IMG/VR virus record: IMGVR_UViG_3300033992_000665
Span: 1-34,314 of that record
Length of the DNA: 34,314 nt
Origin: a virus
Reading direction: 5' to 3' (one strand)
Below are positions 962 to 34,314 of this stretch, one piece after another. Below the pieces are notes generated by a model, which ran no database searches, had not been told where the DNA came from, and saw only the letters and a program-made list of their open reading frames with translations. Numbering within the stretch: position 1 is the first letter of the stretch; every line of letters starts with the position of its first letter. A program made the translations under genes and the position numbers.

Positions 962-989
962 AAAAAACCCACCCGGTGAGGGGTGGGTT
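962..989 (-). terminator. Rho-independent terminator after the 61-aa gene
   Basis: On the minus strand AACCCACCC, the loop CTCACC and GGGTGGGTT form a perfect nine-pair stem followed by more T residues (962-965). It lies about 20 bases past the stop of the 61-residue gene and should end both that unit and any read-through from TerL. Confidence 0.85.
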
Positions 990-1009: not shown

Positions 1010-1195
1010 TTACCAGACCCCGAATCCGCCGCCCGCGACGGGTCGGCAGTCGTCTCTGGTGACTGGCGTTTCCATTCTTTCCACCGTTTCGCCCTGGGTG
1101 GCAAAACGCGCCGCCGTTTCGGCGGAGTCAAAGAGTCCAGTGTCGCCTTCGGCGGTGGTGGTGCAATGGGTGAGGGTGGCGGTGCAAGTGGTCAT
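1010..1195 (-). CDS. 61-residue protein of unknown function, single-gene unit
   Basis: Not recognised. The sequence starts MTTCTATLTHC and ends PVAGGGFGVW. It has a threonine- and cysteine-rich N-terminus (Cys4, Cys11, one later Cys), a central acidic/alanine stretch and no membrane segment. The start is well supported: the minus-strand repeat promoter (-10 at 1240-1245) lies 44 bases upstream, and the leader carries AACCGAAAACAAC directly before the ATG. A perfect terminator follows the stop, so the gene can be expressed on its own although it sits at the end of the TerL operon. That arrangement is typical of phage morons or small regulators. The product could be a host-takeover or regulatory factor, but nothing in the sequence shows which. 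Confidence 0.7.
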   Translation of the reverse strand: MTTCTATLTHCTTTAEGDTGLFDSAETAARFATQGETVERMETPVTRDDCRPVAGGGFGVW

Positions 1196-1239: not shown

Positions 1240-1276
1240 ATTCTGCCACCGATTCATCCCCGCGCAAGTCTTTTTT
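1240..1276 (-). promoter_or_regulatory. Repeated phage promoter, copy P1
   Basis: Minus strand: a run of six A (1276-1271), GAC, TTGCGC (1267-1262), a 16-base spacer ending GGTGG, CAGAAT (1245-1240), then GGCGGTGTTGCAAC. It matches three other copies in the window. It begins within about 10 bases of the TerL stop codon and drives the 61-residue gene. Confidence 0.8.
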
Positions 1277-4844: not shown

Positions 4845-5186
4845 TCAAAACCCCTTCCCGTGGAGCCTCTCGCGAGTCTCGTTGTACGCCATCTTTGCAA
4901 CCAACGCCTCAGCCACGCGCCAGCCCATGCCTTCCGCGAGGTCCATAATCCTCAGAATCACATCAGCAGCTTCCTCGTCCGCGCAATTAAATCCGGGGAT
5001 TTTGGTGCTTTCTGGGTCGCCGTGTTTCAGCGCATCCAGAATCTCCGACACTTCGCCATGAATCTCGGCAAGTGCCGCTGGCGTATTCCGTTCCCCATCC
5101 CAGAAACCTTTGTTTCGGGCGTTGTCGTGGACTTGCTGCGCAACGGTTCGCCATGTGGCGATGAAAAACTCTTGTTCTGGTGTCAT
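4845..5186 (-). CDS. MazG-like nucleotide pyrophosphohydrolase
   Basis: An all-alpha NTP pyrophosphohydrolase, the family that hydrolyses (d)NTPs or alarmone-related nucleotides to monophosphate and pyrophosphate. It has 113 residues, right for a single-domain phage MazG. Metal-binding signature: EIHGEVSEIL at 41-50 (Glu41, Glu45, Glu48) and DEEAADVILRIMD at 70-82 (Glu71/Glu72, Asp75), followed by KMAYNETRER, matching the family's K...N..R end. In phages such enzymes may adjust the nucleotide pool or (p)ppGpp-type signalling; the substrate cannot be read here. The start overlaps the stop of the 20-residue frame (ATGA at 5183-5186). Confidence 0.85.
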   Translation of the reverse strand: MTPEQEFFIATWRTVAQQVHDNARNKGFWDGERNTPAALAEIHGEVSEILDALKHGDPESTKIPGFNCADEEAADVILRIMDLAEGMGWRVAEALVAKMAYNETRERLHGKGF

Positions 5187-5245
5187 TTGGTTCTGATCGT
5201 GATTGGTTTGCCCTCGATTGTGATTGGGTCTGACAGAATGCTCAT
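5183..5245 (-). CDS. 20-residue micro-ORF with a strong Shine-Dalgarno
   Basis: Reads MSILSDPITIEGKPITIRTK and stops. Minus-strand sequence upstream is GGAGGTGACAAAATG, the best Shine-Dalgarno in the window. It sits inside the end of the lipoprotein gene, whose TGA overlaps this ATG; its own TGA overlaps the MazG ATG. Either the peptide is functional, or the frame exists to hand ribosomes from the lipoprotein to MazG. Confidence 0.6.
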   Translation of the reverse strand: MSILSDPITIEGKPITIRTK

Positions 5246-5481
5246 TTTGTCACCTCCGGGAAAAGATCAGCCAGCGGCTCCGTCTGGTAGTCCGGGATTT
5301 TCGGCGGGTCTGGCAATTTCGGCCTCGCCAGCGGAATCCGGTAAAGCGGCACCTCCACCCGGATTGTCCCCTTGCCTCCCGGCAGGGTGTAAATGCCCTC
5401 AAAAGATCCGCCGGGTGAGACGCATGACGGGATTGCGGCAACGGCGATTGCGCCGATTGCGGCGAGTGTGAGTTGATTCAT
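5242..5481 (-). CDS. Proline-rich phage lipoprotein, possible outer-membrane spanin
   Basis: 79 residues. The N-terminus MNQLTLAAIGAIAVAAIPSC is a short, weakly charged signal sequence ending in a lipobox-like IPSC, so lipidation at Cys20 is likely. The mature part, about 60 residues, is proline-rich (ARPKLPDPPKIPDY). Small proline-rich lipoproteins next to holin and endolysin genes are typical of Rz1-type o-spanins, which help disrupt the outer membrane of Gram-negative hosts. No matching i-spanin with an N-terminal membrane anchor and periplasmic coiled coil was found beside it, so the role is inferred from context. The start overlaps the preceding stop by ATGA. Confidence 0.7.
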   Translation of the reverse strand: MNQLTLAAIGAIAVAAIPSCVSPGGSFEGIYTLPGGKGTIRVEVPLYRIPLARPKLPDPPKIPDYQTEPLADLFPEVTK

Positions 5482-5651
5482 GGCGTGGAGAGAAAATGGA
5501 TTGCAACCGCCAGCGCGGCCCCGACCGCCAGCACGGCGGCGAGCATTCGCATGTGCATTCGGTGGATCTGCCGTTCAATTTCGTCCGTGACCCTGCGCTG
5601 GTTTGCGAGGTCTTCGGCGGTCCATTCGTCTTCGGGTGGGTGTGATGTCAT
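5478..5651 (-). CDS. Small C-terminally anchored membrane protein, XhlA/holin-like
   Basis: 57 residues from the ATG at 5651. The N-terminal 35 residues are charged and helical (EDLANQRRVTDEIERQIHRM), followed by one membrane helix at about 37-53 (LAAVLAVGAALAVAIHFL) and a three-residue tail. This shape matches XhlA-type haemolysin/holin accessory proteins. The leader contains AACCGAAACACACCACT directly before the ATG and no Shine-Dalgarno. It is followed by the lipoprotein with an ATGA overlap, and the endolysin is 1 kb downstream, so a lysis role is reasonable. A longer in-frame start at 5702 would place the leader motif inside the protein and is less likely. Confidence 0.7.
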   Translation of the reverse strand: MTSHPPEDEWTAEDLANQRRVTDEIERQIHRMHMRMLAAVLAVGAALAVAIHFLSTP

Positions 5652-5691
5652 AGTGGTGTGTTTCGGTTCAAAGTTATCCCAGCCCAGCCCC

Positions 5692-5784
5692 TCAGTCTTC
5701 AATTTTCGTCCCCCTATTTTGGTAGGAGTTGCAGACTGTCCCCATCGCCAGATGGAGAGCGGTGGCGGGCCGGGAAATCGTCAT
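5692..5784 (-). CDS. Possible 30-residue micro-ORF
   Basis: Starts MTISRPATALHLAMGTVCNS and ends QNRGTKIED. Its ATG overlaps the stop of the 91-residue gene by ATGA, the same coupling seen across the operon; a 40-base gap with the leader motif follows before the holin-like gene. There is no recognisable domain. The overlap could be chance, so this call is weak. Confidence 0.35.
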   Translation of the reverse strand: MTISRPATALHLAMGTVCNSYQNRGTKIED

Positions 5785-6056
5785 GCGGTGGCGGCGGCGT
5801 ATTCGGCGGACGCGGCTTGATATTCAGCCATGTCGGCAGCGTTGATTGCGCGGGCCTCGTCCAAAGCCATGCCAAGATGCTCGACGAGGTTCGGCGTCTT
5901 GCTGAGTCGCAGTGCGGCAAACGTCGAGCCCGCCACCGGCTTCCCGGCTTCAATGTCTTGAGCAACCCCGTGAAACAAGGTCTGGACTGAATCTGGCAGG
6001 CGCTTGGCGATTTCGCGCTGCTTGGCGATGTAGGCGGTGAGGAGTGGCGTGTTCAT
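5781..6056 (-). CDS. 91-residue helical protein, first gene of the lysis/packaging operon
   Basis: Unknown family. It begins MNTPLLTAYIAKQREIAKRL, continues through a helical middle with VAGSTFAALRLSKTPNLVEH and ends alanine-rich (AEYQAASAEYAAATA). It is soluble with no cysteines. The start at 6056 is supported by the upstream promoter copy P2 (-10 at 6090-6095, 33 bases away) and by the leader AACCGAAATCAAAAAC directly before the ATG. A longer frame from 6101 would start inside the promoter and is rejected. As first gene of the operon it could act early in the lysis/packaging programme, but no function can be read. Confidence 0.75.
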   Translation of the reverse strand: MNTPLLTAYIAKQREIAKRLPDSVQTLFHGVAQDIEAGKPVAGSTFAALRLSKTPNLVEHLGMALDEARAINAADMAEYQAASAEYAAATA

Positions 6057-6089
6057 GTTTTTGATTTCGGTTGGATTTGCTGACACCGG

Positions 6090-6127
6090 ATTCTGCCACA
6101 TCCTTCAGCCCGCGCAAGTCTTTTTTT
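6090..6127 (-). promoter_or_regulatory. Repeated phage promoter, copy P2
   Basis: Minus strand: seven A (6127-6121), GAC, TTGCGC (6117-6112), a 16-base spacer ending GATGTGG, CAGAAT (6095-6090), then CCGGTGTCAGCAAA. It overlaps the last codons of the preceding gene, whose stop TGA lies in the spacer. It heads the lysis/packaging operon. Confidence 0.8.
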
Positions 6128-6344
6128 GCACTTTCTTCGTTTTGCTCGGTTTTGTCCCGCACGACAGGCATTTCCCGTTAGGCCCCTTCGGCACCTTAAG
6201 CCCGCACCCACCGCACGCAACCGGCGGCCTGCCGCGTCTGCCGGGTGGTCGGCCCTCGGCGATTGCGCGGGCGGCCTGTTTCGCTGCGACGTTGGCGCGG
6301 TTCCGGGCGGCTTGCTCTGGGGTTCTGGGTTTGCGTTCGGTCAT
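6105..6344 (-). CDS. 79-residue basic zinc-ribbon protein
   Basis: Strongly basic, alanine- and arginine-rich N-terminal half (RTPEQAARNRANVAAKQAAR, then GRPPGRRGRPP, an AT-hook-like GRP element). It is followed by a zinc ribbon CGGCG...CLSCG with four cysteines and a lysine-rich tail ending TKKVQKKTCAG. Together these suggest nucleic-acid binding, perhaps a small transcription factor. It is the last gene of the early operon, and its 3' end carries promoter P2 on the same strand. The start overlaps the preceding stop by ATGA. Confidence 0.8.
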   Translation of the reverse strand: MTERKPRTPEQAARNRANVAAKQAARAIAEGRPPGRRGRPPVACGGCGLKVPKGPNGKCLSCGTKPSKTKKVQKKTCAG

Positions 6345-6595
6345 GGTTTTTCTTCGTTAGGCTTGATCCTCCAAAAATCGAGGTCGGAAAGCAAGGACGG
6401 CCCCGCGCAATTTAGCGGCTCGTCGCACCAGCCCTGATTCCCCCAGTAATGCTGCCAGGTGCGGCCTTGGGCGAGTGCGGCAAAGTATTCGGCCACCTTT
6501 GCGGCTTTCGCCCGCACCTGCTCCTCTGTCATGTCCCAGCATGCCTTTTTCGGCCTGCTGCAATCGGGGTCTGGTTTTGTTTCGGTTGCTGTCAT
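6341..6595 (-). CDS. 84-residue protein, paralogue of the 98-residue gene at 12046
   Basis: Begins MTATETKPDPDCSRPKKACW. The C-terminal half, EEQVRAKAAKVAEYFAALAQ then GRTWQHYW, CDEPLNCAGPS and FWRIKP, aligns with the first 57 residues of the 98-residue protein at 12046-12342 (KAKSAEIAAFYTAKANGKTL, CVDCNGPS, WRVKP). This helix, small beta sheet and 'P..W/F R.KP' ending recurs in short phage proteins of unknown role. The start at 6595 overlaps the stop of the zinc-ribbon gene by ATGA; AACCGAAAC lies right after the start codon. Function unknown. Confidence 0.75.
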   Translation of the reverse strand: MTATETKPDPDCSRPKKACWDMTEEQVRAKAAKVAEYFAALAQGRTWQHYWGNQGWCDEPLNCAGPSLLSDLDFWRIKPNEEKP

Positions 6596-6786
6596 AACTG
6601 GAACACCGTCCCGCCTTTTTTCTCGCCTTGCAAGGGTTTTCTCGCGGTCCCGTTCCTCCGCGTCTCCGTCCCTCGGCACCATTGGCACACGTTGGTCAGA
6701 TGCACGCACATGTCATCCCCTGCGTATGCGCCCGGCTTCCGCGCCTTACCGCACCAGTCGCACCGGATTTTGTCGTCGTCATTCAC
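6592..6786 (-). CDS. 64-residue zinc-ribbon protein
   Basis: Has CDWCG at residues 9-13 and CQWCRG at 34-39, with His29 in CVHLTN between them. This is a compact four-cysteine zinc ribbon of the type seen in small phage DNA-binding or NinF-like proteins. The tail is basic (ARKPLQGEKKGG). The ATG overlaps the helicase-loader stop and the stop overlaps the next start. Likely early and nucleic-acid-associated, but without a specific assignment. Confidence 0.8.
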   Translation of the reverse strand: MNDDDKIRCDWCGKARKPGAYAGDDMCVHLTNVCQWCRGTETRRNGTARKPLQGEKKGGTVFQL

Positions 6787-7520
6787 TTGTCCTCCTCGGG
6801 TTTGTCATCGCACACGAAAACCTGCGGCTTTCCTCCAGAGTGCGGGCGCGTCAGGTCAACCATGCGGCGGATGATTGCGGGGCCGTGATCCAATCCCAGC
6901 CTCCCCTTCAACCACTCGCTGCTCCCGTTCATCGTCCAGAACGTCAACCGGTGCGACTTGTGCCGGTTGTCGAGGAGGTCGGAAAACGCCTCGTCCGCGG
7001 TTTCGTTCCTCGCGCTCTTGCCGATGTCGTCAAGGAGGAGCGCTTGGCACTGGTGCGCGTTGCGGATCGTTGCCACCGCTCCCCCCCGCACGCTGGGGTC
7101 GTTGTGGTGGCGATTTGCGACGGCTTGGCGAAACTCCGCTGCCGTCACCGCATACGGCGTCAAACCCCGCGCTGCGGCCTTCCTGAGCAGCGCAAAGGCC
7201 ACCCTGGTCTTTCCTCCCCCGCTGGCACCTGCAAATCCGACACCGGTTGAGCCGTCGAGGTCAATGGCGGGCCGGAGTTCGGGGGCGAGCAGGTACGGCT
7301 CAATCTTGCGGCGAAATTCGGCCGGCGTCACGTCCAGCCATGCGGCCAATGCGTCTTCGCGGCGGCGATTGATCCGCTTCCGCTCGCGTTCCGCAGCTTG
7401 GCACGGTTCGCATTCGGCCATTCGTTTCCCCCAAACGAGGAAGAACTGCACGTCTTGCCCGCATCCCGGGCATGGGCCGGTCCCGTCGGGCCGGAGTGTA
7501 TGTGAAAAGTCACCATCCAT
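6783..7520 (-). CDS. DnaC/IstB-like AAA+ helicase loader
   Basis: 245 residues. A four-cysteine zinc motif (CPGC at 17-20, CEPC at 37-40) precedes an AAA+ domain: Walker A GASGGGKT at 98-105, Walker B LLLDDIGK at 161-168, a sensor 1-like TFWTMNGS at 193-200 and IIRRM in the C-terminal part. This is the architecture of phage DnaC-type loaders, which place the replicative DnaB helicase at the origin. No phage DnaB, primase or DNA polymerase was found, so it probably captures the host helicase. Its start overlaps the initiator gene by about 10 bases in another frame; the paired organisation initiator-loader resembles lambda O-P and P22 18-12. Confidence 0.88.
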   Translation of the reverse strand: MDGDFSHTLRPDGTGPCPGCGQDVQFFLVWGKRMAECEPCQAAERERKRINRRREDALAAWLDVTPAEFRRKIEPYLLAPELRPAIDLDGSTGVGFAGASGGGKTRVAFALLRKAAARGLTPYAVTAAEFRQAVANRHHNDPSVRGGAVATIRNAHQCQALLLDDIGKSARNETADEAFSDLLDNRHKSHRLTFWTMNGSSEWLKGRLGLDHGPAIIRRMVDLTRPHSGGKPQVFVCDDKPEEDK

Positions 7521-8334
7521 TTTTTGAGAGGGGGTTGGGTTTGAAAATTCTGGCTTCTTCTTCGGTGGTCATCTTCCCGGATCGGGCTGGTGCGAACTCC
7601 TTCTGTCTCCTCGCCCACGCTCTCAACGTTGCCCTCCAGTCCGCCATGGGGTTTCGTCCGACCCTCCACCCGTTGCCTTCGTAGTAGTCCCATGCGCCCA
7701 ATGCCTGATTCTCCGCGAGCGGTTCCGGCATCGTTTTGGCGTAGGTCGTCCATTCGTCGATGGTTGGTTTGATGAACTTCTGCCGCTTTGGCTTTTCCGG
7801 AACGGGCGCGAGAGGCGCAGCCGACCCTTCTTCCAATTCCAGTTCTCTTTCCTTTGTTCCTTCCTGTTTCTCCTTACTCCTTCCACCTTCCCCTTCCACC
7901 TTACTCCTTACTCCTTCCGTAGGAGGTGAGCTACAAGCAGAATCGGTTTCTGCTACAAACTGTGCTACTGGCTGTGCTTTAGCTGAGCTTGTAGCTGTGC
8001 TACGATTCTGGGCCTTTGCCTGCCCTCCACGCTTTCCCGCCTCCCTTTTGGCGACAACCTCCAACTCCTTCTCCACCGGGTAGTTCCAGACGGTGAGGCT
8101 CCCTGTTCCGTCGAATGACCACAAGCCGCACTGGTCCCGCACCTCGTCCAGCGTAATGCCGCACCCGAAAAGCCACGCCCGCTCATTCCATCCGCCAGCG
8201 CCATGAATCACGCCGCCGTTTTCATGCTCGGAGCAGTACGCCAGCAATTTGAGCCACGTCGCCTGCTGTGTCGGGCTGGCTGAAATGTACTCCGATTCCC
8301 GGAGGGTTGTTGTCTTGATGTTGATCCAGATCAT
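7510..8334 (-). CDS. Replication initiator (O-like), with internal repeats
   Basis: 274 residues from the ATG at 8334; an upstream in-frame start at 8382 is disfavoured by the natural MIWINIKTTTLRESEYISAS beginning. The N-terminal domain (about 1-105) looks like a winged helix: TQQATWLKLLAYCSEHENGG, then NERAWLFGCGITLDEVRDQ and TVWNYPVEKELE. A low-complexity linker (about 110-185) is encoded by purine-rich and inverted repeats. The C-terminal domain (about 190-260) reads FIKPTIDEWTTYAKTMPE then NGWRVGRNPMADWRATLRAW, typical of phage initiator or DnaD-like helicase-recruiting modules. The neighbouring loader supports the role. The repeats inside the gene are a candidate origin. Confidence 0.78.
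   Translation of the reverse strand: MIWINIKTTTLRESEYISASPTQQATWLKLLAYCSEHENGGVIHGAGGWNERAWLFGCGITLDEVRDQCGLWSFDGTGSLTVWNYPVEKELEVVAKREAGKRGGQAKAQNRSTATSSAKAQPVAQFVAETDSACSSPPTEGVRSKVEGEGGRSKEKQEGTKERELELEEGSAAPLAPVPEKPKRQKFIKPTIDEWTTYAKTMPEPLAENQALGAWDYYEGNGWRVGRNPMADWRATLRAWARRQKEFAPARSGKMTTEEEARIFKPNPLSKNGW
7870..8003. repeat. Iteron-like repeat cluster inside the initiator gene, candidate origin
   Basis: Plus strand: the 15-mer ctccttactccttcc occurs at 7870-7884 and again at 7904-7918 within a long pyrimidine tract. The 9-mer ctgtgctac occurs at 7960-7968 and 7995-8003. gctacaagc (7930-7938) is the inverted complement of gcttgtagc (7987-7995). Lambdoid initiator genes keep their origin iterons at the same place, in the linker between the two domains. 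Confidence 0.55.
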
Positions 8335-8464
8335 TGGGCGTAAAAATCCCCACTCCCTCTGCCCGCGCTGAACCCCGGACATGCGACCGGACGCGGAAGA
8401 GGGGTGGGGTGATTCTTCATGTAATGCGAGGGGGTTCAGTTCCTCGGCGCTGTTGCGCTGCGGT

Positions 8465-8493
8465 ACTTAAACGCGGAGTTGCGCGTTTGTCAA
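8465..8493 (-). promoter_or_regulatory. Sigma70-like promoter upstream of the replication genes, with a palindrome
   Basis: Minus strand: perfect TTGACA (8493-8488), 17 bases, then TTAAGT (8470-8465). The -35 overlaps the methyltransferase stop codon. The spacer contains the palindrome AACGCG-N6-CGCGTT (8470-8487). This element is unlike the four-copy promoter, so the initiator/loader genes may have separate control. Confidence 0.5.
8470..8487. promoter_or_regulatory. Candidate operator palindrome in the replication promoter
   Basis: aacgcg (8470-8475) and cgcgtt (8482-8487) are perfect inverted repeats around six bases and fill the interval between the -35 and -10 of the promoter. A repressor bound here would block transcription; the zinc-ribbon/HTH protein encoded at 13922 is one possible ligand. 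Confidence 0.4.
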
Positions 8494-9473
8494 ATGTCGC
8501 ACTCCTCCGCAATCCCTGCCAGCAAGGGCACCTCCTCCCGGATGTTCCCGGCGGCGGCTTCCGCGCAATTCTTCACGGCTTGCAGGTAGTACGCCCGCTT
8601 GAGTTCGACGCCAATGGCGCGGCGTCCGTTGAGGATTGCCCCGTAGGCTTCCGATCCCACCCCCAGAAACGGTGTCAGCACGGTTTCGCCGGGATTTGAC
8701 CGCAGTACCACCACCCGCTCAATCACGTCCAACTGCAACGGGTGAACGTGTTTCTCGTCCTCGGGGTCTTTGCAGTCCTTGTACGGCAGCACCCGGCCAA
8801 TCCGCACGTCATCCCAGAAAGCGGATGCGTAGTTGCGCCAGATCCAATGCGAAAACCTGTTTTCTGTCTGCTTGCCAGTGTGACCCTTGTATTTCAGCAA
8901 CTCGGCGGGCATCTGCTTTTCTCCGGCGTAGGAGTGGAGTCCGGTCGGGTGTTCAACCGGCACTTTGTTCTGACCGTCTCGCCGAAACAAAAGGAGGTAG
9001 TCAGCGGATGCTACGTCGCAAAGGCTGGAGTCCTCAACAATCGTCTTGTGAGCCAGCCCTTTCGCCATCGTCCGCAACCGCACACCCAGCGGCTCCTTCC
9101 ACACGCAATGACGGGCGATGTACTTGAATCCCAGCCGCTCGTGTAGTCGGATGATGTCGCCCGGAAAATCTGTCAGGTGATTCCCAGCGTTGACTGAGCT
9201 TGGAATGTCCATGCAATGAACCGCCGTAATGCGTCCCGGCTTTGTCAGGCGTGCAATCTGACTGACGACGAATTCATAGTGCTTGAAAAACTCTTCGTAG
9301 CTTCCGCAGTTCGACAAATCCCGCTCGTCGCTGCTGTAGTTGTAAAGGCCGCAAAACGGCGGGCTGTAAATCGACAGGTCAACGCATTGATCCGGGAGGG
9401 TTGGCATGACTTGGCAACAGTCCCCGTTATATAGGGCGTACTTGTCCGTAATGACTTGGCTGGTTAAATCCAT
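8490..9473 (-). CDS. DNA adenine-N6 or cytosine-N4 methyltransferase (beta-class order)
   Basis: 327 residues. The catalytic motif IV is SPPF at 37-40, followed much later by the SAM-binding motif I FLGVGS at 269-274 and GVELK near 288-292, the motif order of beta-class amino methyltransferases. SPPF does not settle whether the target is adenine or cytosine. A region around 180-235 (KQMPAELLKYKGHTG, FSHWIWRNYASAFWDD) probably contacts DNA. It should protect phage DNA from host restriction or alter gene expression. No cognate restriction enzyme is present. The start overlaps the end of the helicase gene by 10 bases. Confidence 0.9.
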   Translation of the reverse strand: MDLTSQVITDKYALYNGDCCQVMPTLPDQCVDLSIYSPPFCGLYNYSSDERDLSNCGSYEEFFKHYEFVVSQIARLTKPGRITAVHCMDIPSSVNAGNHLTDFPGDIIRLHERLGFKYIARHCVWKEPLGVRLRTMAKGLAHKTIVEDSSLCDVASADYLLLFRRDGQNKVPVEHPTGLHSYAGEKQMPAELLKYKGHTGKQTENRFSHWIWRNYASAFWDDVRIGRVLPYKDCKDPEDEKHVHPLQLDVIERVVVLRSNPGETVLTPFLGVGSEAYGAILNGRRAIGVELKRAYYLQAVKNCAEAAAGNIREEVPLLAGIAEECDI

Positions 9474-10831
9474 GATGGCAATTCGGTTTGTGGTGTTTGT
9501 GCTTTGTGTTTCCTGACTTCCAATTCCTGACCCATGAGAGAGACAAGGCTTGAAAACATTTTCTCGGCGGCGTCCGCCTTGCGCTGAAGGTTCAGCATAA
9601 CGTCCCGCTCGCCCTCGCTGGTGATGATGTCAACGGTGACTGGTCGGGTTTGACCGAATCTCCATGATCGGCGGATTGCCTGATACCATTGCTCGAAGGA
9701 GTGCGACGGAAAAAAGGTCTGGTGATTGCAATGCTGCCAGTTCAGCCCAAACCCGGCAATCGTCGGTTTCGTGACCAGCACCTGAATCTGACCAGACTCA
9801 AACGCGGCGAATTTCTCTTCCTTCTCCTCGTCCGTGTCGCTGCCTGACACCTCAACCGCACCGGGTGTCATTTTGGCGAGCATTGCGGACTCGCTGTTGA
9901 GATAGCACCACTGCACCGATGACTTGCCCTCATGCGCTGCCACGCATTCAGCCGCTTTCTCGCATCGCTCTTTGATGGTGCGGCTGCGCTCCTTTCGTTG
10001 TTCCTGCAATCCGGCGGCGGGGAGTGAAAACAGAAACCCATCAGCGGGCGAGTTCGCCGCAACAACGTGCTGTTTCGTGATGAGTTCCGGGAGTGTCAGG
10101 TGGTTGTCGTCAAACCCGATGTCAGACGGACGGCGGATTGCTCGGGACCACGAGCAAACCCAGCGCCAGAAATCCCGCTCGGCGTGTCCGCGGAATCGGT
10201 AAATGCCGGACCTGTTTTCATCCTTGCGGCTGATCGTCGCCTCCGACTTCTTGAAGAATTTCCCCAGCATGTCCATATACCCCATGTAGCCTAGCGCCTC
10301 GGCGGACGTGCCTAGTTCAATGAAGTCATTAGGCGCGGCCGTTGCGGTGCATAGGAGCCGGTATGGGTGTTTGCGCATGAAGTCCGTCACGTTTTTTTTC
10401 GTGACGCCATCGAAGTTTTTGAGGATGCTGGACTCATCGCAGACGGTGCCCGCAAAATCGGACGGGTTGAACAAATGAATCCGCTCATAGTTCGCCACCA
10501 CAACGCGAGCGCCGGAGTGTTTGCCGTCCATCGACCGCACGGCATCAATCCCGAATTTCTCGGCTTCTTTGACCGTCTGGTGACCCACGGAAAGCGGCGT
10601 CAGGACAAGGACTGGTTTGTTTGTTTTCTGGATGACGTTTTGAGCAAACGACAATTCCATTAAGGTCTTTCCTAGTCCACAATCGGCAAAAATGGATGCG
10701 CGTCCTTTTTTTGTTCCCCAACCTATCAAGTGTTGCTGGAAGTCAAACGCCGCATCCGGCATGAAAACCGGATCAAACCCGTGATCGCCTCCGGTGTGGC
10801 TTTTCTGCGTGATGAATTCGTCGTATGTCAT
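9464..10831 (-). CDS. SNF2-type superfamily 2 helicase/translocase
   Basis: 455 residues. Motif I DCGLGKT at 50-56, motif Ia TPLSVG at 78-83, motif II DESS at 132-135 (in place of DEAH), motif III TATAAPN at 162-168. In the C-terminal RecA-like domain motif V reads GFGLNW, followed by HSFEQWYQAIRRSWRFGQ, where RRSWRFGQ corresponds to the Snf2 motif VI arginine-finger region. Phage members of this family remodel or translocate on double-stranded DNA; coupling to a methyltransferase is common. The leader is AACCGAAACACAA right before the ATG, after a 39-base gap. A DISARM or BREX system is not supported, because no other components are present. Confidence 0.9.
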   Translation of the reverse strand: MTYDEFITQKSHTGGDHGFDPVFMPDAAFDFQQHLIGWGTKKGRASIFADCGLGKTLMELSFAQNVIQKTNKPVLVLTPLSVGHQTVKEAEKFGIDAVRSMDGKHSGARVVVANYERIHLFNPSDFAGTVCDESSILKNFDGVTKKNVTDFMRKHPYRLLCTATAAPNDFIELGTSAEALGYMGYMDMLGKFFKKSEATISRKDENRSGIYRFRGHAERDFWRWVCSWSRAIRRPSDIGFDDNHLTLPELITKQHVVAANSPADGFLFSLPAAGLQEQRKERSRTIKERCEKAAECVAAHEGKSSVQWCYLNSESAMLAKMTPGAVEVSGSDTDEEKEEKFAAFESGQIQVLVTKPTIAGFGLNWQHCNHQTFFPSHSFEQWYQAIRRSWRFGQTRPVTVDIITSEGERDVMLNLQRKADAAEKMFSSLVSLMGQELEVRKHKAQTPQTELPSWI

Positions 10832-10870
10832 TTGTGTTTCGGTTGTGCCTTGCGGCGGGTGGTTGTGGTG

Positions 10871-11083
10871 CTATTTCGGGGGCGTGTCAAGGGTTTTTTC
10901 TTTCAAGCTCAAATACTCCGCAATCTCCCCCACGGCTCCGATGAGCAGGAAAAGCGCGTACTCAATGCGGGTCGTTGATTCGGGCGGGTCTGCCGCGCCG
11001 TCGATTACCTCCTTGCCCATCTTGCACGCCGTCTGCGCTCGCCACAGGCACCACTCCTCCTTTGTTTTGGGTGGGGTGTTCAT
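10871..11083 (-). CDS. 70-residue helical protein of unknown function
   Basis: Begins MNTPPKTKEEWCLWRAQTAC. The second half, IEYALFLLIGAVGEIAEYLS, is an amphipathic or weakly hydrophobic helix interrupted by glutamates, so a true membrane span is doubtful. The GAVGEIAEYL segment is faintly MazG-like but lacks the acidic metal sites. The start overlaps the RuvC-like stop by ATGA. No function can be assigned. Confidence 0.7.
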   Translation of the reverse strand: MNTPPKTKEEWCLWRAQTACKMGKEVIDGAADPPESTTRIEYALFLLIGAVGEIAEYLSLKEKTLDTPPK

Positions 11084-11580
11084 TTCGCATCTTGGAGTTG
11101 AGTGTCGTATGCCACCAGCACCGCATCAACAATGCCATCATGCAGCGCCTTTCCTGTCGGGGCTTTCGTGGGGAACGGATAGTCAGGCCACAGCTTCCGC
11201 ACAAGCGCCGCCGCTGCTTTCTTGTTCCCGCCCTTCGTCTGCCTGCCCAGCAACCGGCGCTGCCAGCCATCCAGCCGGTTCCCGCACGGCACCTCCACCA
11301 CGCGCAGCCCTGACAGTTTCGCGGCGTTGTAGAGGATGCCGTAGTTCATCGCAAAACTCCGCATCGTGTGCGCGGAGTCCATGTGGTCTGGGAGAAGTTC
11401 AAGGGCGACGATGGTATTTGACGGGTAAGAACAAAGCATGGTGTAAATCGCGTGGCCATGAACGCGCTTCCCGCATGATTCCAGGGGCATTTCCCATGCG
11501 TCAATGATCCCGTTTTCGTCCAGCGTGGCGATGCCGCCGCTCAGTCCGTTGTCGATCCCGATGTAGATGCGTCCTTTCAC
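11080..11580 (-). CDS. RuvC-like Holliday junction resolvase
   Basis: 166 residues with an RNase H-like fold signature: GIDNGLSGGIA with Asp10, then Glu61 in VALELLP, and KALHDGIVDAVLVA with Asp148 and Asp152. These are the four acidic positions used by RuvC-type nucleases to bind two metals. Between them is a basic loop, QRRLLGRQTKGGNKK (107-121), suited to junction binding. In phages these enzymes resolve branched DNA before packaging. It belongs to the recombination/replication part of the early operon and overlaps both neighbours by ATGA. Confidence 0.87.
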   Translation of the reverse strand: MKGRIYIGIDNGLSGGIATLDENGIIDAWEMPLESCGKRVHGHAIYTMLCSYPSNTIVALELLPDHMDSAHTMRSFAMNYGILYNAAKLSGLRVVEVPCGNRLDGWQRRLLGRQTKGGNKKAAAALVRKLWPDYPFPTKAPTGKALHDGIVDAVLVAYDTQLQDAK

Positions 11581-11858
11581 TTGATCCCTCCTAACTCATG
11601 CTCGTCCTTGAGCGCCTGATACGCCAGCCGGTCAACGTAGCTGTCCACATGGTCGGGAACGGTTTCAAGCCGTGCGGTCTTGAGTGCGATGAGGAATTGA
11701 TAGCCCTCGCCAATCGTCATCTGGCGTCCGGTCGTCTCACCGAAAATCTCACAGATGCGCGGCATGGATCGTTCCTGTGATTTGCCAGCGGTGTCGTATT
11801 CGGTGCCGCGTTGCTCGATGATGTCGGCTGCGCGGCGGAGTAGTTCTGGAGCGGTCAT
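11577..11858 (-). CDS. DUF6378-like phage protein
   Basis: 93 residues from the ATG at 11858, which overlaps the preceding stop. The pattern is familiar from phage proteins: LLRRAADIIEQRGTEYDTAG near the N-terminus, QERSMPRICEIFGE, then FLIALKTARL and DHVDSYVDRLAYQALKDE. The 'RG..YD', 'LK.aR' and 'hvDs..D..aY' elements match DUF6378 as I know it. The biochemical role is unknown; an all-helical nucleotide-binding fold is possible. Confidence 0.78.
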   Translation of the reverse strand: MTAPELLRRAADIIEQRGTEYDTAGKSQERSMPRICEIFGETTGRQMTIGEGYQFLIALKTARLETVPDHVDSYVDRLAYQALKDEHELGGIK

Positions 11859-12049
11859 AGTGGGAGTTCTGGTGTTTGTTCTTCTTTCTCGCGGCGTTGC
11901 TGGTCGCGAATCCATGCAACGGCGGAGCGGAGGTCTTCGATGAGGGTATCAGCAGCGCGGAGTGACATCGCTGTGCGGGCACTGACGAAAACGGTTGCGT
12001 CGCCGTCCGTGACCTCCGCCAACACGTCTCCCCAATTGCGGCGTTTCAT
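11855..12049 (-). CDS. 64-residue small protein of unknown function
   Basis: Reads MKRRNWGDVLAEVTDGDATV, then an amphipathic helix with RAADTLIEDLRSAVAWIRD, and ends EEQTPELPL. The length, charged helix and lack of cysteines are typical of early phage accessory proteins. The start at 12049 is chosen because it overlaps the preceding stop by ATGA; an upstream ATG at 12097 would overlap the 98-residue gene by 50 bases. Confidence 0.7.
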   Translation of the reverse strand: MKRRNWGDVLAEVTDGDATVFVSARTAMSLRAADTLIEDLRSAVAWIRDQQRREKEEQTPELPL

Positions 12050-17984: not shown

Positions 17985-18352
17985 TCTGCCTCCTTTTTTG
18001 CTTGGATTCTGGCTTTTGCGATCCTGCTGCGGATTTTGTCGCGGAATAGCGAAAGGGATTCAATCAATCCCTCCCAGTCAATTTCGGTGCTGTTCCATAC
18101 TTCCTCCGTGTTATCAAGAAACTCATCCATGGAAACCGTCACATGCTGATCCCCCAGCAAAAACCCGATGTTTGCCTCTTCGTTTGGATCATCTAGGTCA
18201 TCTTTGCATAGGCAAATCTGAATGCCGTCGTCTCCCGTTGTCTGCTCCCTAAAAAACTCCTCCATGCCGTCCACGTCTTCGGCTAGTTGCTTTCTGATTC
18301 CGTCAAAAATCAGCTTGATGTCTCCGGGGTCGTTTTTTGGTCGTGTCTTCAT
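17981..18352 (-). CDS. 123-residue acidic protein, first gene of the early operon
   Basis: Begins MKTRPKNDPGDIKLIFDGIR. The middle is strongly acidic (CLCKDDLDDPNEEANIGFLL, DEFLDNTEEVWNSTEIDWEG) and the C-terminus basic (RDKIRSRIAKARIQAKKEAE). The start at 18352 is supported by promoter P3 (-10 at 18393-18398, 40 bases upstream) and by two leader motifs in tandem, AACCGAAACCAAACCGA-ATG. An upstream in-frame ATG at 18397 lies within the promoter -10 and is rejected. Acidic first-expressed phage proteins are sometimes DNA mimics or host-takeover factors; this is only a suggestion. Confidence 0.75.
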   Translation of the reverse strand: MKTRPKNDPGDIKLIFDGIRKQLAEDVDGMEEFFREQTTGDDGIQICLCKDDLDDPNEEANIGFLLGDQHVTVSMDEFLDNTEEVWNSTEIDWEGLIESLSLFRDKIRSRIAKARIQAKKEAE

Positions 18353-18392
18353 TCGGTTTGGTTTCGGTTGTGCTGCCTCGTGGCAACACCGG

Positions 18393-18429
18393 ATCATCGC
18401 ACATTCCGCGTCGTGTGCAAGTCTTTTTT
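18393..18429 (-). promoter_or_regulatory. Repeated phage promoter, copy P3
   Basis: Minus strand: six A (18429-18424), GAC, TTGCAC (18420-18415), 16 bases ending ATGTGC, GATGAT (18398-18393), then CCGGTGTTGCC. It is the most divergent copy in the spacer but keeps the A-tract, exact spacing and downstream CCGGTGT. It heads the early operon. Confidence 0.75.
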
Positions 18430-18479
18430 ATTGCTGCGGTGCATTTTGTTCCCCTCCCCAGAAAAAGAGCGGCGTGATG

Positions 18480-18516
18480 AAAAAAGACTTGCGCGGGAGA
18501 CGAGGTGTGGTATTCT
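18480..18516 (+). promoter_or_regulatory. Repeated phage promoter, copy P4 (divergent)
   Basis: Plus strand: six A (18480-18485), gac, ttgcgc (18489-18494), 16 bases ending ggtgtgg, tattct (18511-18516). It is back to back with P3, with the two -35 elements 68 bases apart, and drives the 83-residue gene. The downstream part (cacgtcgtcagcaac) matches P2's end (gtcagcaa) better than CGGTGT. Confidence 0.8.
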
Positions 18517-18553
18517 CACGTCGTCAGCAACAACCAACCAACCGCATAACAAA

Positions 18554-18805
18554 ATGAACATGACCTTCGCAGCCGAAAACTACATCGCAACGGGCGACGC
18601 CGAAATCGCCCACAAAGCGGCCCTTAAGGCTTGGGACGCAGCGGAGGAAGCCCTTGCGGCAGCCGACGCCGAGTTCGTCTCGGCTGAAATGGGCGAGGCT
18701 AAGTACCTCGCAAACTTCAAATACAAAGCCGCACAGGCTGCGGCAAAAATGGCGGAGGAGATCGCCATGCAGACATGGAAGGAGACGTGGAGGGTCTCCC
18801 AATAA
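18554..18805 (+). CDS. 83-residue alanine-rich helical protein, the only plus-strand gene
   Basis: Begins MNMTFAAENYIATGDAEIAH and is helical almost throughout (KAALKAWDAAEEALAAADAE, NFKYKAAQAAAKMAEEIAMQ), ending TWRVSQ; probably a coiled coil. It has its own promoter copy P4, a leader of repeated AACC units (aaccaaccaaccgcataacaaa) and a perfect terminator right after the stop. This isolated, divergent, self-contained unit is typical of morons, antirepressors and inhibitors of host defence. No motif identifies which. A longer frame from 18287 would run through both promoters and is rejected. Confidence 0.82.
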   Translation: MNMTFAAENYIATGDAEIAHKAALKAWDAAEEALAAADAEFVSAEMGEAKYLANFKYKAAQAAAKMAEEIAMQTWKETWRVSQ

Positions 18806-18811
18806 CCCACC

Positions 18812-18839
18812 GCCCCACCCGAAACGGTGGGGCTTTTTT
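18812..18839 (+). terminator. Rho-independent terminator of the 83-residue gene
   Basis: gccccacc (18812-18819), loop cgaaac, ggtggggc (18826-18833), then six T. The eight-pair stem is perfect. Only the plus strand has the T run, but the same hairpin lies just past the stop of the minus-strand hub gene and might slow transcription from that side. Confidence 0.93.
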
Positions 18840-18845
18840 GTGCCG

Positions 18846-21296
18846 TCACGCCGCGATGTAGGGGAGGGTCACCACCGGGGCGGTAATCACGCCCTCGGTG
18901 TGCTGGGAAATCTTCATGATTGAATCAGTTATGGCGATGCTGCAAAGCAACACGTGCCCGACCGTCGCCGTATCCGTTGGCGGGGTGGTGGTCACGATGA
19001 TGTCGGCGCTGGAGCAATACCAGTATTTCACTCCGATGGTTGCCGTGGTCGGAAGGCTGAATGAGACCGTCTCCCCGTCGTCCCCCTCGTCACCGCTCGT
19101 GCCGTATCCGCCCGCTCCGCCGTCTCCGCCGTCCCCGCCGTTGCCGCCCGCAGCCGCACCGCCAACCGATCCCGCCGCAGGTCCGCCAGCGCCTCCAGTA
19201 TCGCCGCCCGCGCCCGTGCTGGTTGGCTGCCCCGCCGCCCCGTCCGCGCCGTTGCTGCCCGCTCCACCTCCGCCGCCGCCACCGCCACCCTTGCCCCCGC
19301 CACCACCACCGCCGCCGTCTCCACCCGTGCCGCCCGTGCCGCCCTTTCCGCCCGTGATCGAGACGGACGACGAGCCAGTCAATGCGCCCTCGCTGGTGTA
19401 CGCCGTCCCCGTGTAGGTGAGCCGCAGGTAAATCTTGCTCCCGTTGCTGACCGTCGCGGTCGGGCTGGCGTATTCAGCCTCAATCGTGTGCGCCGTGTAC
19501 GTCGGCGTCGGGTCGTTGGTCGGGCTGTCAATGTCCAGCAGTGTTGTCAGGACGACGCCGGGGTTGATGGTGACGGCTGTGGCTGTGGCTTGGTTGACGG
19601 AAAAATACCGCTGGGGATTCTGGCCGGTGGAGCGGACGCTGTTTCCAGTGCGCCCGGCAACCGCCCCTTCGACGTTGGAGGATCCGGTGACGGCTCCGCT
19701 GGTCCGCAATGCGCCGGGCGTGAGGGATGGTTTCACCGCCCGCTCTCCAGCCCGCTGCAAGGCGATGAAGTCGTCTGGACTGATGCGCGGATTGATCGGC
19801 CCGAAATTCACCGTCGTTCGGCCTGAGAAAATGTCGGCGGTGACGCTCTGGATGACGGCCCCGGTCAAAACGAACAAACCCGTAGTGGTCAGTTTTTTCC
19901 CTGGTACCAGTGTGCGGTCGATCTCGTCGCCCACGAATACGGCGGTGCCAGACGGCGACTCCGTTGAGATTGCGTCATAGTACGCCTGCGCGAGCCCTGC
20001 CGGTGCCGTTTCGCCGGTGGTCGATGCGCTGGTGCGGTACGTCGTGCTGGTGGCGTCGGTGCCAGTCAGTTCGCGGGTCAGCGTCAACAGCCCCGTCTCC
20101 TTGTCGAATAACTTGTAGAGGGCCGCGTTCGCCACCGTGCCGAGCCAGCGAAGGACAATGGTGATTGTTGCGGGGGCGGCGGAAATCCCAGCCTGCCATG
20201 GAGGGATTGATCCGCCGATCAGTTCGCGTGGGTATTTCGGTGATCCGCCCGGTTCGGGAACGTTGCCCAGCCCAACCTTCGCGGCAACGTCCACGGCCTG
20301 CGAGACGCTGACCACCTCGACGTTCCCCGCCACCGGGTCAGTCTCCGCCACGTCGGGAAAGTTTTTGATGATCCAGTTTCGTACATCTGTCAGGCTTGAG
20401 CTGTTGTCAATCAGGGGAGCGGTTAGCACCTGCTGCGATTGCGTCACCGTGTCGGTCCCTTTGAGGGTGATCGTGCGGCGGACAATATCCACTCCAGACG
20501 TTGCGCCCGCCGTCTGCTCTGTTAAGTCAATCCACTCGACGCCGTCCACCGTGTTCACCGTCTCAAATGTCAGCACCACGCCCCGCGTAATTCGCCGCCG
20601 AAGCGGCCTCTGGCGAATGAGCTTGCACCCGCTGGTGTTGCCTGACACCGCTTTCGTGATGGTCGAGAGCGCCGATGGCTTCGCGACGTTGAAGGTGCTG
20701 GCGACGTGATCGAACCAGCTCACGCAATCAGGATGCCACCGAAGCGGGGTTCGGATGCACTCCATGCAGGTCGAGTCAACCACCTCCTGCGATGGCACCG
20801 TCAACGCGACGCCTGACAGGATTGATCCGGTTGCGACGCCTGACGATTCCGTCGCCGCGTAGGTCAGCACATCCGCAATCGTCGTCGCTGTGGTCTGATT
20901 CGTGCCGCTGTTCGACACACCGAGTTGGCACCGTGTCTTGAAGGCGTAGGACTGGCTGGGCGTCGCTGGACCGATGGCGTACCGCTGGCGGTAGGTGATC
21001 CGGTTGAGGTTGCTGCTGAGTCCTGAGCATTGCACCGTCCACCCCTCGCGTCCGCCGTCAGCGAATGGCTCAACCCGGACGACGTAGCCCCGGAAGTAGA
21101 TGTTAGCGCCCTCGCGGATAATGACAGCATCGTTCTCGTCGGCGGGCGCGGTGGCGTTGGCGTTGAGGGCAAACGCAAGCTCAAGCGAATCTTCGCCACC
21201 TGCCTGTAGATTGACGATGGCGGATGTGATCTTGAGAGTTGAGAACGCAGTGGCGCTCCCTGCTCCGATTTGTGCTGTCCATGTGGTGCCTGGCAT
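18846..21296 (-). CDS. Tail hub/baseplate protein with C-terminal glycine-rich adhesin domain
   Basis: 816 residues, last gene of the structural operon. The first part (MPGTTWTAQIGAGSATAF, beta-rich, with VQCSGLSSNLNRITYRQRYA near 90-110) looks like a tail hub of the gp27/gpD type and follows the tape measure as hubs do. Residues about 520-650 form further beta domains. Residues 649-741 are a striking glycine-rich segment of GG, GGD, GGK and GGGGG units, then a small domain (742-816) ending VVTLPYIAA. Long glycine runs like these form polyglycine-II helices in phage S16-type adhesins, where the loops contact the receptor. Hub and adhesin on one chain would be economical for a short siphovirus tail. 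Confidence 0.7.
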   Translation of the reverse strand: MPGTTWTAQIGAGSATAFSTLKITSAIVNLQAGGEDSLELAFALNANATAPADENDAVIIREGANIYFRGYVVRVEPFADGGREGWTVQCSGLSSNLNRITYRQRYAIGPATPSQSYAFKTRCQLGVSNSGTNQTTATTIADVLTYAATESSGVATGSILSGVALTVPSQEVVDSTCMECIRTPLRWHPDCVSWFDHVASTFNVAKPSALSTITKAVSGNTSGCKLIRQRPLRRRITRGVVLTFETVNTVDGVEWIDLTEQTAGATSGVDIVRRTITLKGTDTVTQSQQVLTAPLIDNSSSLTDVRNWIIKNFPDVAETDPVAGNVEVVSVSQAVDVAAKVGLGNVPEPGGSPKYPRELIGGSIPPWQAGISAAPATITIVLRWLGTVANAALYKLFDKETGLLTLTRELTGTDATSTTYRTSASTTGETAPAGLAQAYYDAISTESPSGTAVFVGDEIDRTLVPGKKLTTTGLFVLTGAVIQSVTADIFSGRTTVNFGPINPRISPDDFIALQRAGERAVKPSLTPGALRTSGAVTGSSNVEGAVAGRTGNSVRSTGQNPQRYFSVNQATATAVTINPGVVLTTLLDIDSPTNDPTPTYTAHTIEAEYASPTATVSNGSKIYLRLTYTGTAYTSEGALTGSSSVSITGGKGGTGGTGGDGGGGGGGGKGGGGGGGGGAGSNGADGAAGQPTSTGAGGDTGGAGGPAAGSVGGAAAGGNGGDGGDGGAGGYGTSGDEGDDGETVSFSLPTTATIGVKYWYCSSADIIVTTTPPTDTATVGHVLLCSIAITDSIMKISQHTEGVITAPVVTLPYIAA
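19074..19352. repeat. GGN-repeat tract encoding the glycine-rich domain
   Basis: About 280 bases of imperfect GGN triplets on the minus strand (ccg, ccc, ccn on the plus strand), encoding hub residues 649-741. Codons for glycine vary, so it is selected protein sequence rather than a simple microsatellite, but it is prone to slippage and could vary in length between isolates. Confidence 0.8.
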
Positions 21297-33436: not shown

Positions 33437-34314
33437 GCGGCTTCCTTTCGGTCGGCGGTTTCCTGCTCGTCCATATCATCTTCCGCGTCCTTCGCTCCAT
33501 CCTCCACGGCGGCGGAGAGCATCGAGTTGACCAGCCGTTGCAGCACCTCGTTCTGCGTCTCCGCCTTTGCTGCCGTCAGGGATGCCGTGAGCGGCTGAAC
33601 CGGCGCAACCGCTTGCTCCACCACGTCCTCTCCCTCCGCGGGTGGTGGAACATCGTGGCGTTCATGCCACCATTTCCGCGGCATCCGCATGCCCGACCGG
33701 ATCAACACCTCGTCGCGTTCCGCTAGCAGCTTCGCGTCAATTGGTTCGGGGATCTCACAGACGACGGTCGGAATCTCCGTGAGCTCGCCGTAATTGGCGC
33801 GGATGACGTATTCCGCAAACTTCTGGAGCGTGACGACGGCGTCGTTGCAGTATCCCTGCATGGCCTCACGCCGCACGCCCGAAAACACCGCACCCGTGTT
33901 GCCCAGCCCGCCCGCGCCCTCGCTCCCGCTCGATGCCGTCTCCCCGCGGATCACGATGTCACAGGCTTGGTTGGTCATCCGAATAACCAAATCCTGCGGC
34001 AGGTCGCCCGCGTTCTTCGCGTCCAGAAGCTCGAGTTTCGTCCCCTCCGGGAACGCGCCATAGCCACTGCTGCCAAGGTTGGCTAGCATGTTGAGTAGCT
34101 GGGTCTTGACCTGCGCGTTGCGCTCCGCATACGTCGCCCAGCGGAACGGCGTCCCGAAACGCTGCGTGAACTCCATGAGCCATTTGAACCCGTATACGTT
34201 CGCCATCCAATATTTGACCAGCGTGCGGAACCGCCCAGCCTGCGACGGGTGGGCATCGGTGGCCGAAACGACGTGAGGGAGAAACCGGAGCTTGGGGAAG
34301 TTTTCCCACGCGCC
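33433..34314 (-). CDS. Phage portal protein, C-terminal part (continues from the circular join)
   Basis: C-terminal 257 residues of the portal from the join onward, read as MANVYGFKWLMEFTQRFG at the N-side (34206), with AERNAQVKTQLLNMLANLGS, FPEGTKLELLDAKNAG and ETASSGSEGAGGLG (crown and stem). The C-terminal tail is alanine/glutamate-rich (MLSAAVEDGAKDAEDDMDEQ, then TADRKEAA). The apparent ATG at 34206 is internal and is not the start: the same frame continues upstream through the join into bases 1-694. Bases 34207-34314 repeat the start of the window. The stop overlaps the protease start. Confidence 0.88.
   Translation of the reverse strand, partial: GAWENFPKLRFLPHVVSATDAHPSQAGRFRTLVKYWMANVYGFKWLMEFTQRFGTPFRWATYAERNAQVKTQLLNMLANLGSSGYGAFPEGTKLELLDAKNAGDLPQDLVIRMTNQACDIVIRGETASSGSEGAGGLGNTGAVFSGVRREAMQGYCNDAVVTLQKFAEYVIRANYGELTEIPTVVCEIPEPIDAKLLAERDEVLIRSGMRMPRKWWHERHDVPPPAEGEDVVEQAVAPVQPLTASLTAAKAETQNEVLQRLVNSMLSAAVEDGAKDAEDDMDEQETADRKEAA
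34188..34314. repeat. Terminal direct repeat, right copy
   Basis: Exact second copy of bases 1-127. Joining the ends here restores one uninterrupted portal reading frame: position 34206 equals position 19, and 19 is in frame with the ATG at 694. This supports circularity rather than chance similarity. Confidence 0.95.

Follow-up and report, generated by a model that had tools for sequence, protein, structure and literature searches.

The moron concept of Hendrix and Juhala describes accessory genes of phages that, in their classical form, are mainly known from prophages, while in the lambdoid phages mosaic exchange takes place at conserved boundary sequences. Morons are inserted between phage genes, have their own transcription signals, often deviate in GC content, which is a usual rather than an obligatory sign, and often occur in several phage classes (PMC2920897). 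The accessory loci of prophages lie in reverse orientation to the lytic genes (PMC7067206), and ydfA, a DUF1391 gene, opens the dicBF operon in the E. coli Qin prophage (PMC10448788). Here, we consider a small unit headed by a promoter, P4, which we judge, with a probability of roughly 0.8, to be a moron, i.e., a dispensable cassette of one gene with its own transcription, placed where insertions recur. As such, it belongs to a well-known class of optional genes, the less ordinary aspect being that a repeated promoter may serve as a shared site of exchange.

The window, i.e., the whole 34,314-base stretch of the virus record IMGVR_UViG_3300033992_000665, has a 127-base direct terminal repeat, with identical ends at 1-127 and 34188-34314. 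Since the portal gene spans these ends, the record is probably a circularly closed assembly, and the circle likely measures about 34,187 bases. The recognised genes include those for structure, packaging and lysis (a Mu-like portal, terminase, head protease, major head protein, scaffold and endolysin) and those for replication, recombination and other functions (a DnaC-like loader, methyltransferase, helicase, resolvase, HNH nuclease, exonuclease and RecT). All of them lie on the minus strand, in agreement with the initial annotation, which had all other genes running opposite to an 83-residue gene; in being reverse to the lytic genes, the P4 unit resembles the prophage accessory loci. Signs of lysogeny looked for in the window were not found, and a terminase profile scan of GTDB genomes retrieved no prophage. 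Positions 11577-11915 and 4845-5186 match PHROGs named phosphofructokinase and pyrophosphatase, respectively; the former match covers only 112 aa, and its name may mislead.

The P4 unit, together with the gene next to it, is laid out as follows:

18480-18485: A-tract immediately upstream of P4
18489..18516, plus strand: promoter P4, with -35 TTGCGC (18489-18494), a 16-nt spacer and -10 TATTCT (18511-18516)
18523..18553, plus strand: predicted A/C-rich leader with no evident Shine-Dalgarno sequence
18554..18805, plus strand: 83-aa orphan gene, with a second in-frame ATG at 18560
18812..18839, plus strand: intrinsic terminator, with a stem (18812-18833) of 8 pairs, 7 of them G-C, followed by T6
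18846..21296, minus strand: slot-edge gene, glycine-rich, closing the structural block, probably structural

The 83-residue gene had been described as possessing its own leader and terminator, and this picture stands, with P4, an A/C-rich leader, 83 codons and a strong terminator (dG -18 kcal/mol, z -2.6). As the opposite strand of 18812-18839 lacks a T-run, the terminator works on plus-strand transcription only. The ORF reaches a codon score of 0.565, whereas known genes average 0.31±0.13 and their wrong frames do not exceed 0.17. This is the top coding score among the 144 plus-strand ORFs, and no other plus-strand ORF lies near it. This coding signal speaks against the unit being mainly a regulatory antisense RNA that opposes read-through from the structural genes into the RecT operon, with the ORF being incidental. 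P4 does point antisense to any such read-through, and an equivalent unit in a relative (G021, below) retains promoter, leader and terminator though its ORF differs. However, that unit codes for a member of a curated family, DUF1391, the window is without an Rfam match, and the unit is missing from two relatives; we hold the antisense reading to be improbable.

The initial annotation could place the alanine-rich product in no family, and the homology, profile and structure searches all concur. No relatives were recovered in viral contigs, GTDB genomes, phages, plasmids, 22 related records or any of the fetched loci, and no Pfam, PHROG, NCBIfam or PADLOC model (the last representing defence rather than anti-defence) matched above cut-off. 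The protein is 30% alanine, and its 13 acidic against 8 basic residues indicate that it is no strongly acidic DNA mimic. A single-sequence model predicts a two-helix hairpin (mean pLDDT 85, against 66-75 in other models), for which Foldseek returned nothing under 0.001 among viral and PDB structures. The model distantly resembles a ROP-like hairpin in its fold, but not significantly (E 0.37); because helical hairpins resemble many unrelated proteins, such fold matches were not used to assign a family. A SecD-TM1 match (0.054, far below cut-off) was put down to alanine-rich helix composition, as were matches to designed toroids and FtsZ. The product is most likely a small helical-hairpin accessory protein, and its likeliest role is some accessory interaction with the host, the kind of which is a guess. 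A function against the host or against its defences is plausible; we would place the odds that the protein works in this way a little below even.

P4 is one of four promoters of a single family, the other three being:

1240..1267, minus strand: promoter P1, matrix score 41.3
6090..6117, minus strand: promoter P2, matrix score 51.3
18393..18420, minus strand: promoter P3 of the RecT operon, with -35 TTGCAC (18415-18420), a 16-nt spacer and -10 GATGAT (18393-18398)

The shared element AAAAGACTTGC occurs exactly at 18417-18427 (minus), 18482-18492 (plus), 1264 (minus) and 6114 (minus), and with at most one mismatch it has 5 matches in the window against 0.45 expected. The 16-nt spacer is common to all four promoters, with -10 elements CAGAAT, CAGAAT, GATGAT (P3) and TATTCT (P4). 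When a 40-nt matrix trained solely on eight sites from related contigs was run over the window, the four best sites were P2, P1, P4 (36.2) and P3 (33.8), the next best scoring 10.6 and the maximum in ten random genomes being 14.2; a textbook E. coli sigma-70 scan fails to pick up P4. Of the viral contigs returned by a promoter-pattern scan, three were relatives already known, and a fourth (L142) matched by chance within a gene. P3 and P4 diverge, their -35 cores starting at 18420 (minus) and 18489 (plus), and the previously stated separation of 68 bases between the -35 boxes is exact. The stretch between them yielded no particular operator-like palindrome, the main inverted repeat being the two promoters themselves.

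Two expectations that the initial annotation drew from this arrangement fared less well. It reasoned that a promoter in common with the early operon predicts simultaneous expression. However, promoters of the same consensus as P3 and P4 also stand ahead of the lysis and terminase genes (P2) and of the small gene that precedes the portal and structural genes (P1), and the window showed no distinct class of late promoters. Given the terminator of the P1 unit, P1 may not be what transcribes the portal genes. Promoter identity therefore cannot tell early from late, and the prediction is weak. An antirepressor, its second suggestion, has no support, as no repressor, integrase or transposase turned up in the genes scanned. 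A broader form of this idea would make the 83-aa protein a core early regulator, either an antirepressor or a transcription regulator, that acts on P3 and P4 and governs the expression programme. Its location at a divergent promoter pair and its small, predicted helical build, with the non-significant resemblance to ROP, would fit such a role; yet the gene is missing in relatives that retain P3 and replaced in G021, and no DNA-binding domain was found in the protein, such that we consider a core regulator unlikely.

The comparative evidence comes from a small group of uncultured phages, gathered by terminase, structural-protein and RecT-operon searches, among which the structural gene at 18846..21296 has counterparts of 81, 55 and 54% identity. 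From its stop codon to the -35 box of P3, the slot measures 426 nt in the window. This slot is empty in L062 (12 nt), which has the 81% identical structural protein, and in G022 (27 nt). In L144 it extends to 782 nt and holds an HNH endonuclease (PF13392, 2.7e-14), whereas the short stretch present at this place in G019, G020 and L064 shows no evident gene, and their promoter is a different one. The L144 endonuclease, at L144:525-1106, has a possible AP2 domain.

In G021, the slot measures about 965 nt and carries two plus-strand genes. One belongs to a P4-like unit that adjoins the structural gene, with a TTGCGC promoter, a AACCAACCGCAT leader, a 57-aa gene and a terminator with a 10-bp stem; in alignment, its leader and that of P4 share AACCAACCGCAT-ACAA-ATGAAC. 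The 57-aa product is a member of DUF1391/PHROG 751 (2.8e-19, 1.7e-20), the family of the YdfA prophage proteins, which thus has a representative in an equivalent unit. In contrast, the 83-aa protein does not belong to this family, as it has neither a match to PF07151 (DUF1391/YdfA) nor an alignment to the G021 protein, to which it is unrelated. The other plus-strand gene of G021 (L055:2945-3361) codes for 138 aa with an N-terminal hydrophobic stretch and a likely coiled coil, and falls in no family.

Since the slot is empty in two relatives and otherwise occupied in others, it presents itself as an insertion hot spot and the P4 unit as a moron in the comparative sense. What had been offered as an isolated unit, possibly a moron, is accordingly backed by relatives in which it is missing or replaced. 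The promoter family, the coding character of the ORF, the terminator, the presence and absence of the unit and its replacement in the slot are each read directly from the sequences. The absence of the unit from L062 and G022 suggests that it is dispensable for phage growth. In these same genomes, the structural and RecT blocks adjoin, so that the unit is, as in other phage morons, inserted between adjacent genes; with them it also shares its own promoter and terminator, as recognised by sequence, and the varied occupants of its hot spot. Unlike them, it has a GC content (57.9% for the ORF) that does not deviate from that of the genome (59.5%), comes with no evidence of lysogeny, and has a promoter of the same family as the phage's own operon promoters. 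Presence in several phage classes is seen for the DUF1391 occupant of G021 but not for the 83-aa gene, whose product matched no relative in the searches above.

The membership of P4 in the same family as P3 might instead hint at an ordinary early gene, formerly the first gene of the RecT operon, that was inverted along with its promoter. G022 and L144 indeed have here a small gene in the operon direction with its own promoter and terminator. Against this, the operon-head proteins (61 aa and 123 aa) are unlike the 83-aa protein. Moreover, the unit of G021 is equally reversed, so that this genome is not alone in having such an orientation. We regard such an inversion as highly unlikely.

Under the moron reading, the cassette was inserted in reverse past the 3' end of the structural operon, with P3 and the recombination (RecT) operon on its other side, at a hot spot whose occupant varies among related phages. 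We infer both that P4 is transcribed and that it is read by the host RNA polymerase with a sigma-70-type factor. The transcript would be translated from the A/C-rich leader and end at the intrinsic terminator, such that the cassette would neither depend on its neighbours nor read into them. Its product may then act on the host during infection, in takeover or in counter-defence.

Gene exchange is also seen behind P1 and P2, and relatives have other genes behind P3. The genes and the terminator concerned are:

966..989, minus strand: terminator of the P1 unit, a 9-bp stem followed by a T-run
1010..1195, minus strand: 61-aa orphan gene of the P1 unit, between terminase and portal
5781..6056, minus strand: first gene behind P2, 91 aa
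17981..18352, minus strand: first gene behind P3, a 123-aa orphan whose start was set at ATG 18352, as the upstream ATG 18397 falls within the P3 -10

P1 thus heads another promoter-gene-terminator unit, on the minus strand, so that the P4 unit is not the only self-contained one in the window. Contig L019 matches the window through P1, with identity stopping just past the -10 and a different short ORF following. The 61-aa gene of the P1 unit (966-1269) is replaced in L019, yet a similar terminator is kept. At P2, L020 matches the window with 98.7% identity over 6033-11005 and 89% over 5242-5793, yet the 91-aa gene in between is swapped from start to stop codon for an unrelated 100-aa gene (L020:4883-5250). 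At the P3 position, G022 and L144 have a 61-aa gene with its own terminator, in contrast to the 123-aa gene of the window. At the RecT position of G022, an annealing-type protein (L058:1442-2248) is 38% identical overall with a conserved C-terminus, likely reflecting a domain or gene exchange relative to the RecT of the window.

As judged from these comparisons, several accessory slots in this phage group are headed by copies of one promoter. The pattern recalls lambdoid mosaic exchange in that identity extends over promoter and leader until it is lost, either at the start codon or just past the -10. It differs in that the promoter, of which the genome has four copies, itself forms the conserved boundary. 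From a handful of genomes, we tentatively raise the possibility, which we consider less likely than not, that the repeated promoter is a docking sequence: P1-P4 would each head a rapidly exchanged small gene, with recombination, perhaps RecT-aided, joining at the promoter or leader, thereby making these loci homology-loaded accessory slots with ready-made expression signals.

These observations turn what was a guess from a single genome into a moron backed by comparison, and point to several accessory slots with the same promoter within one phage group. The swap behind P2, in which a 98.7% identical flank adjoins an unrelated gene, stands as a recent and clean example of accessory-gene exchange. 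More generally, such slots are a practical place to look for small orphan proteins with a possible action on the host or its defences.
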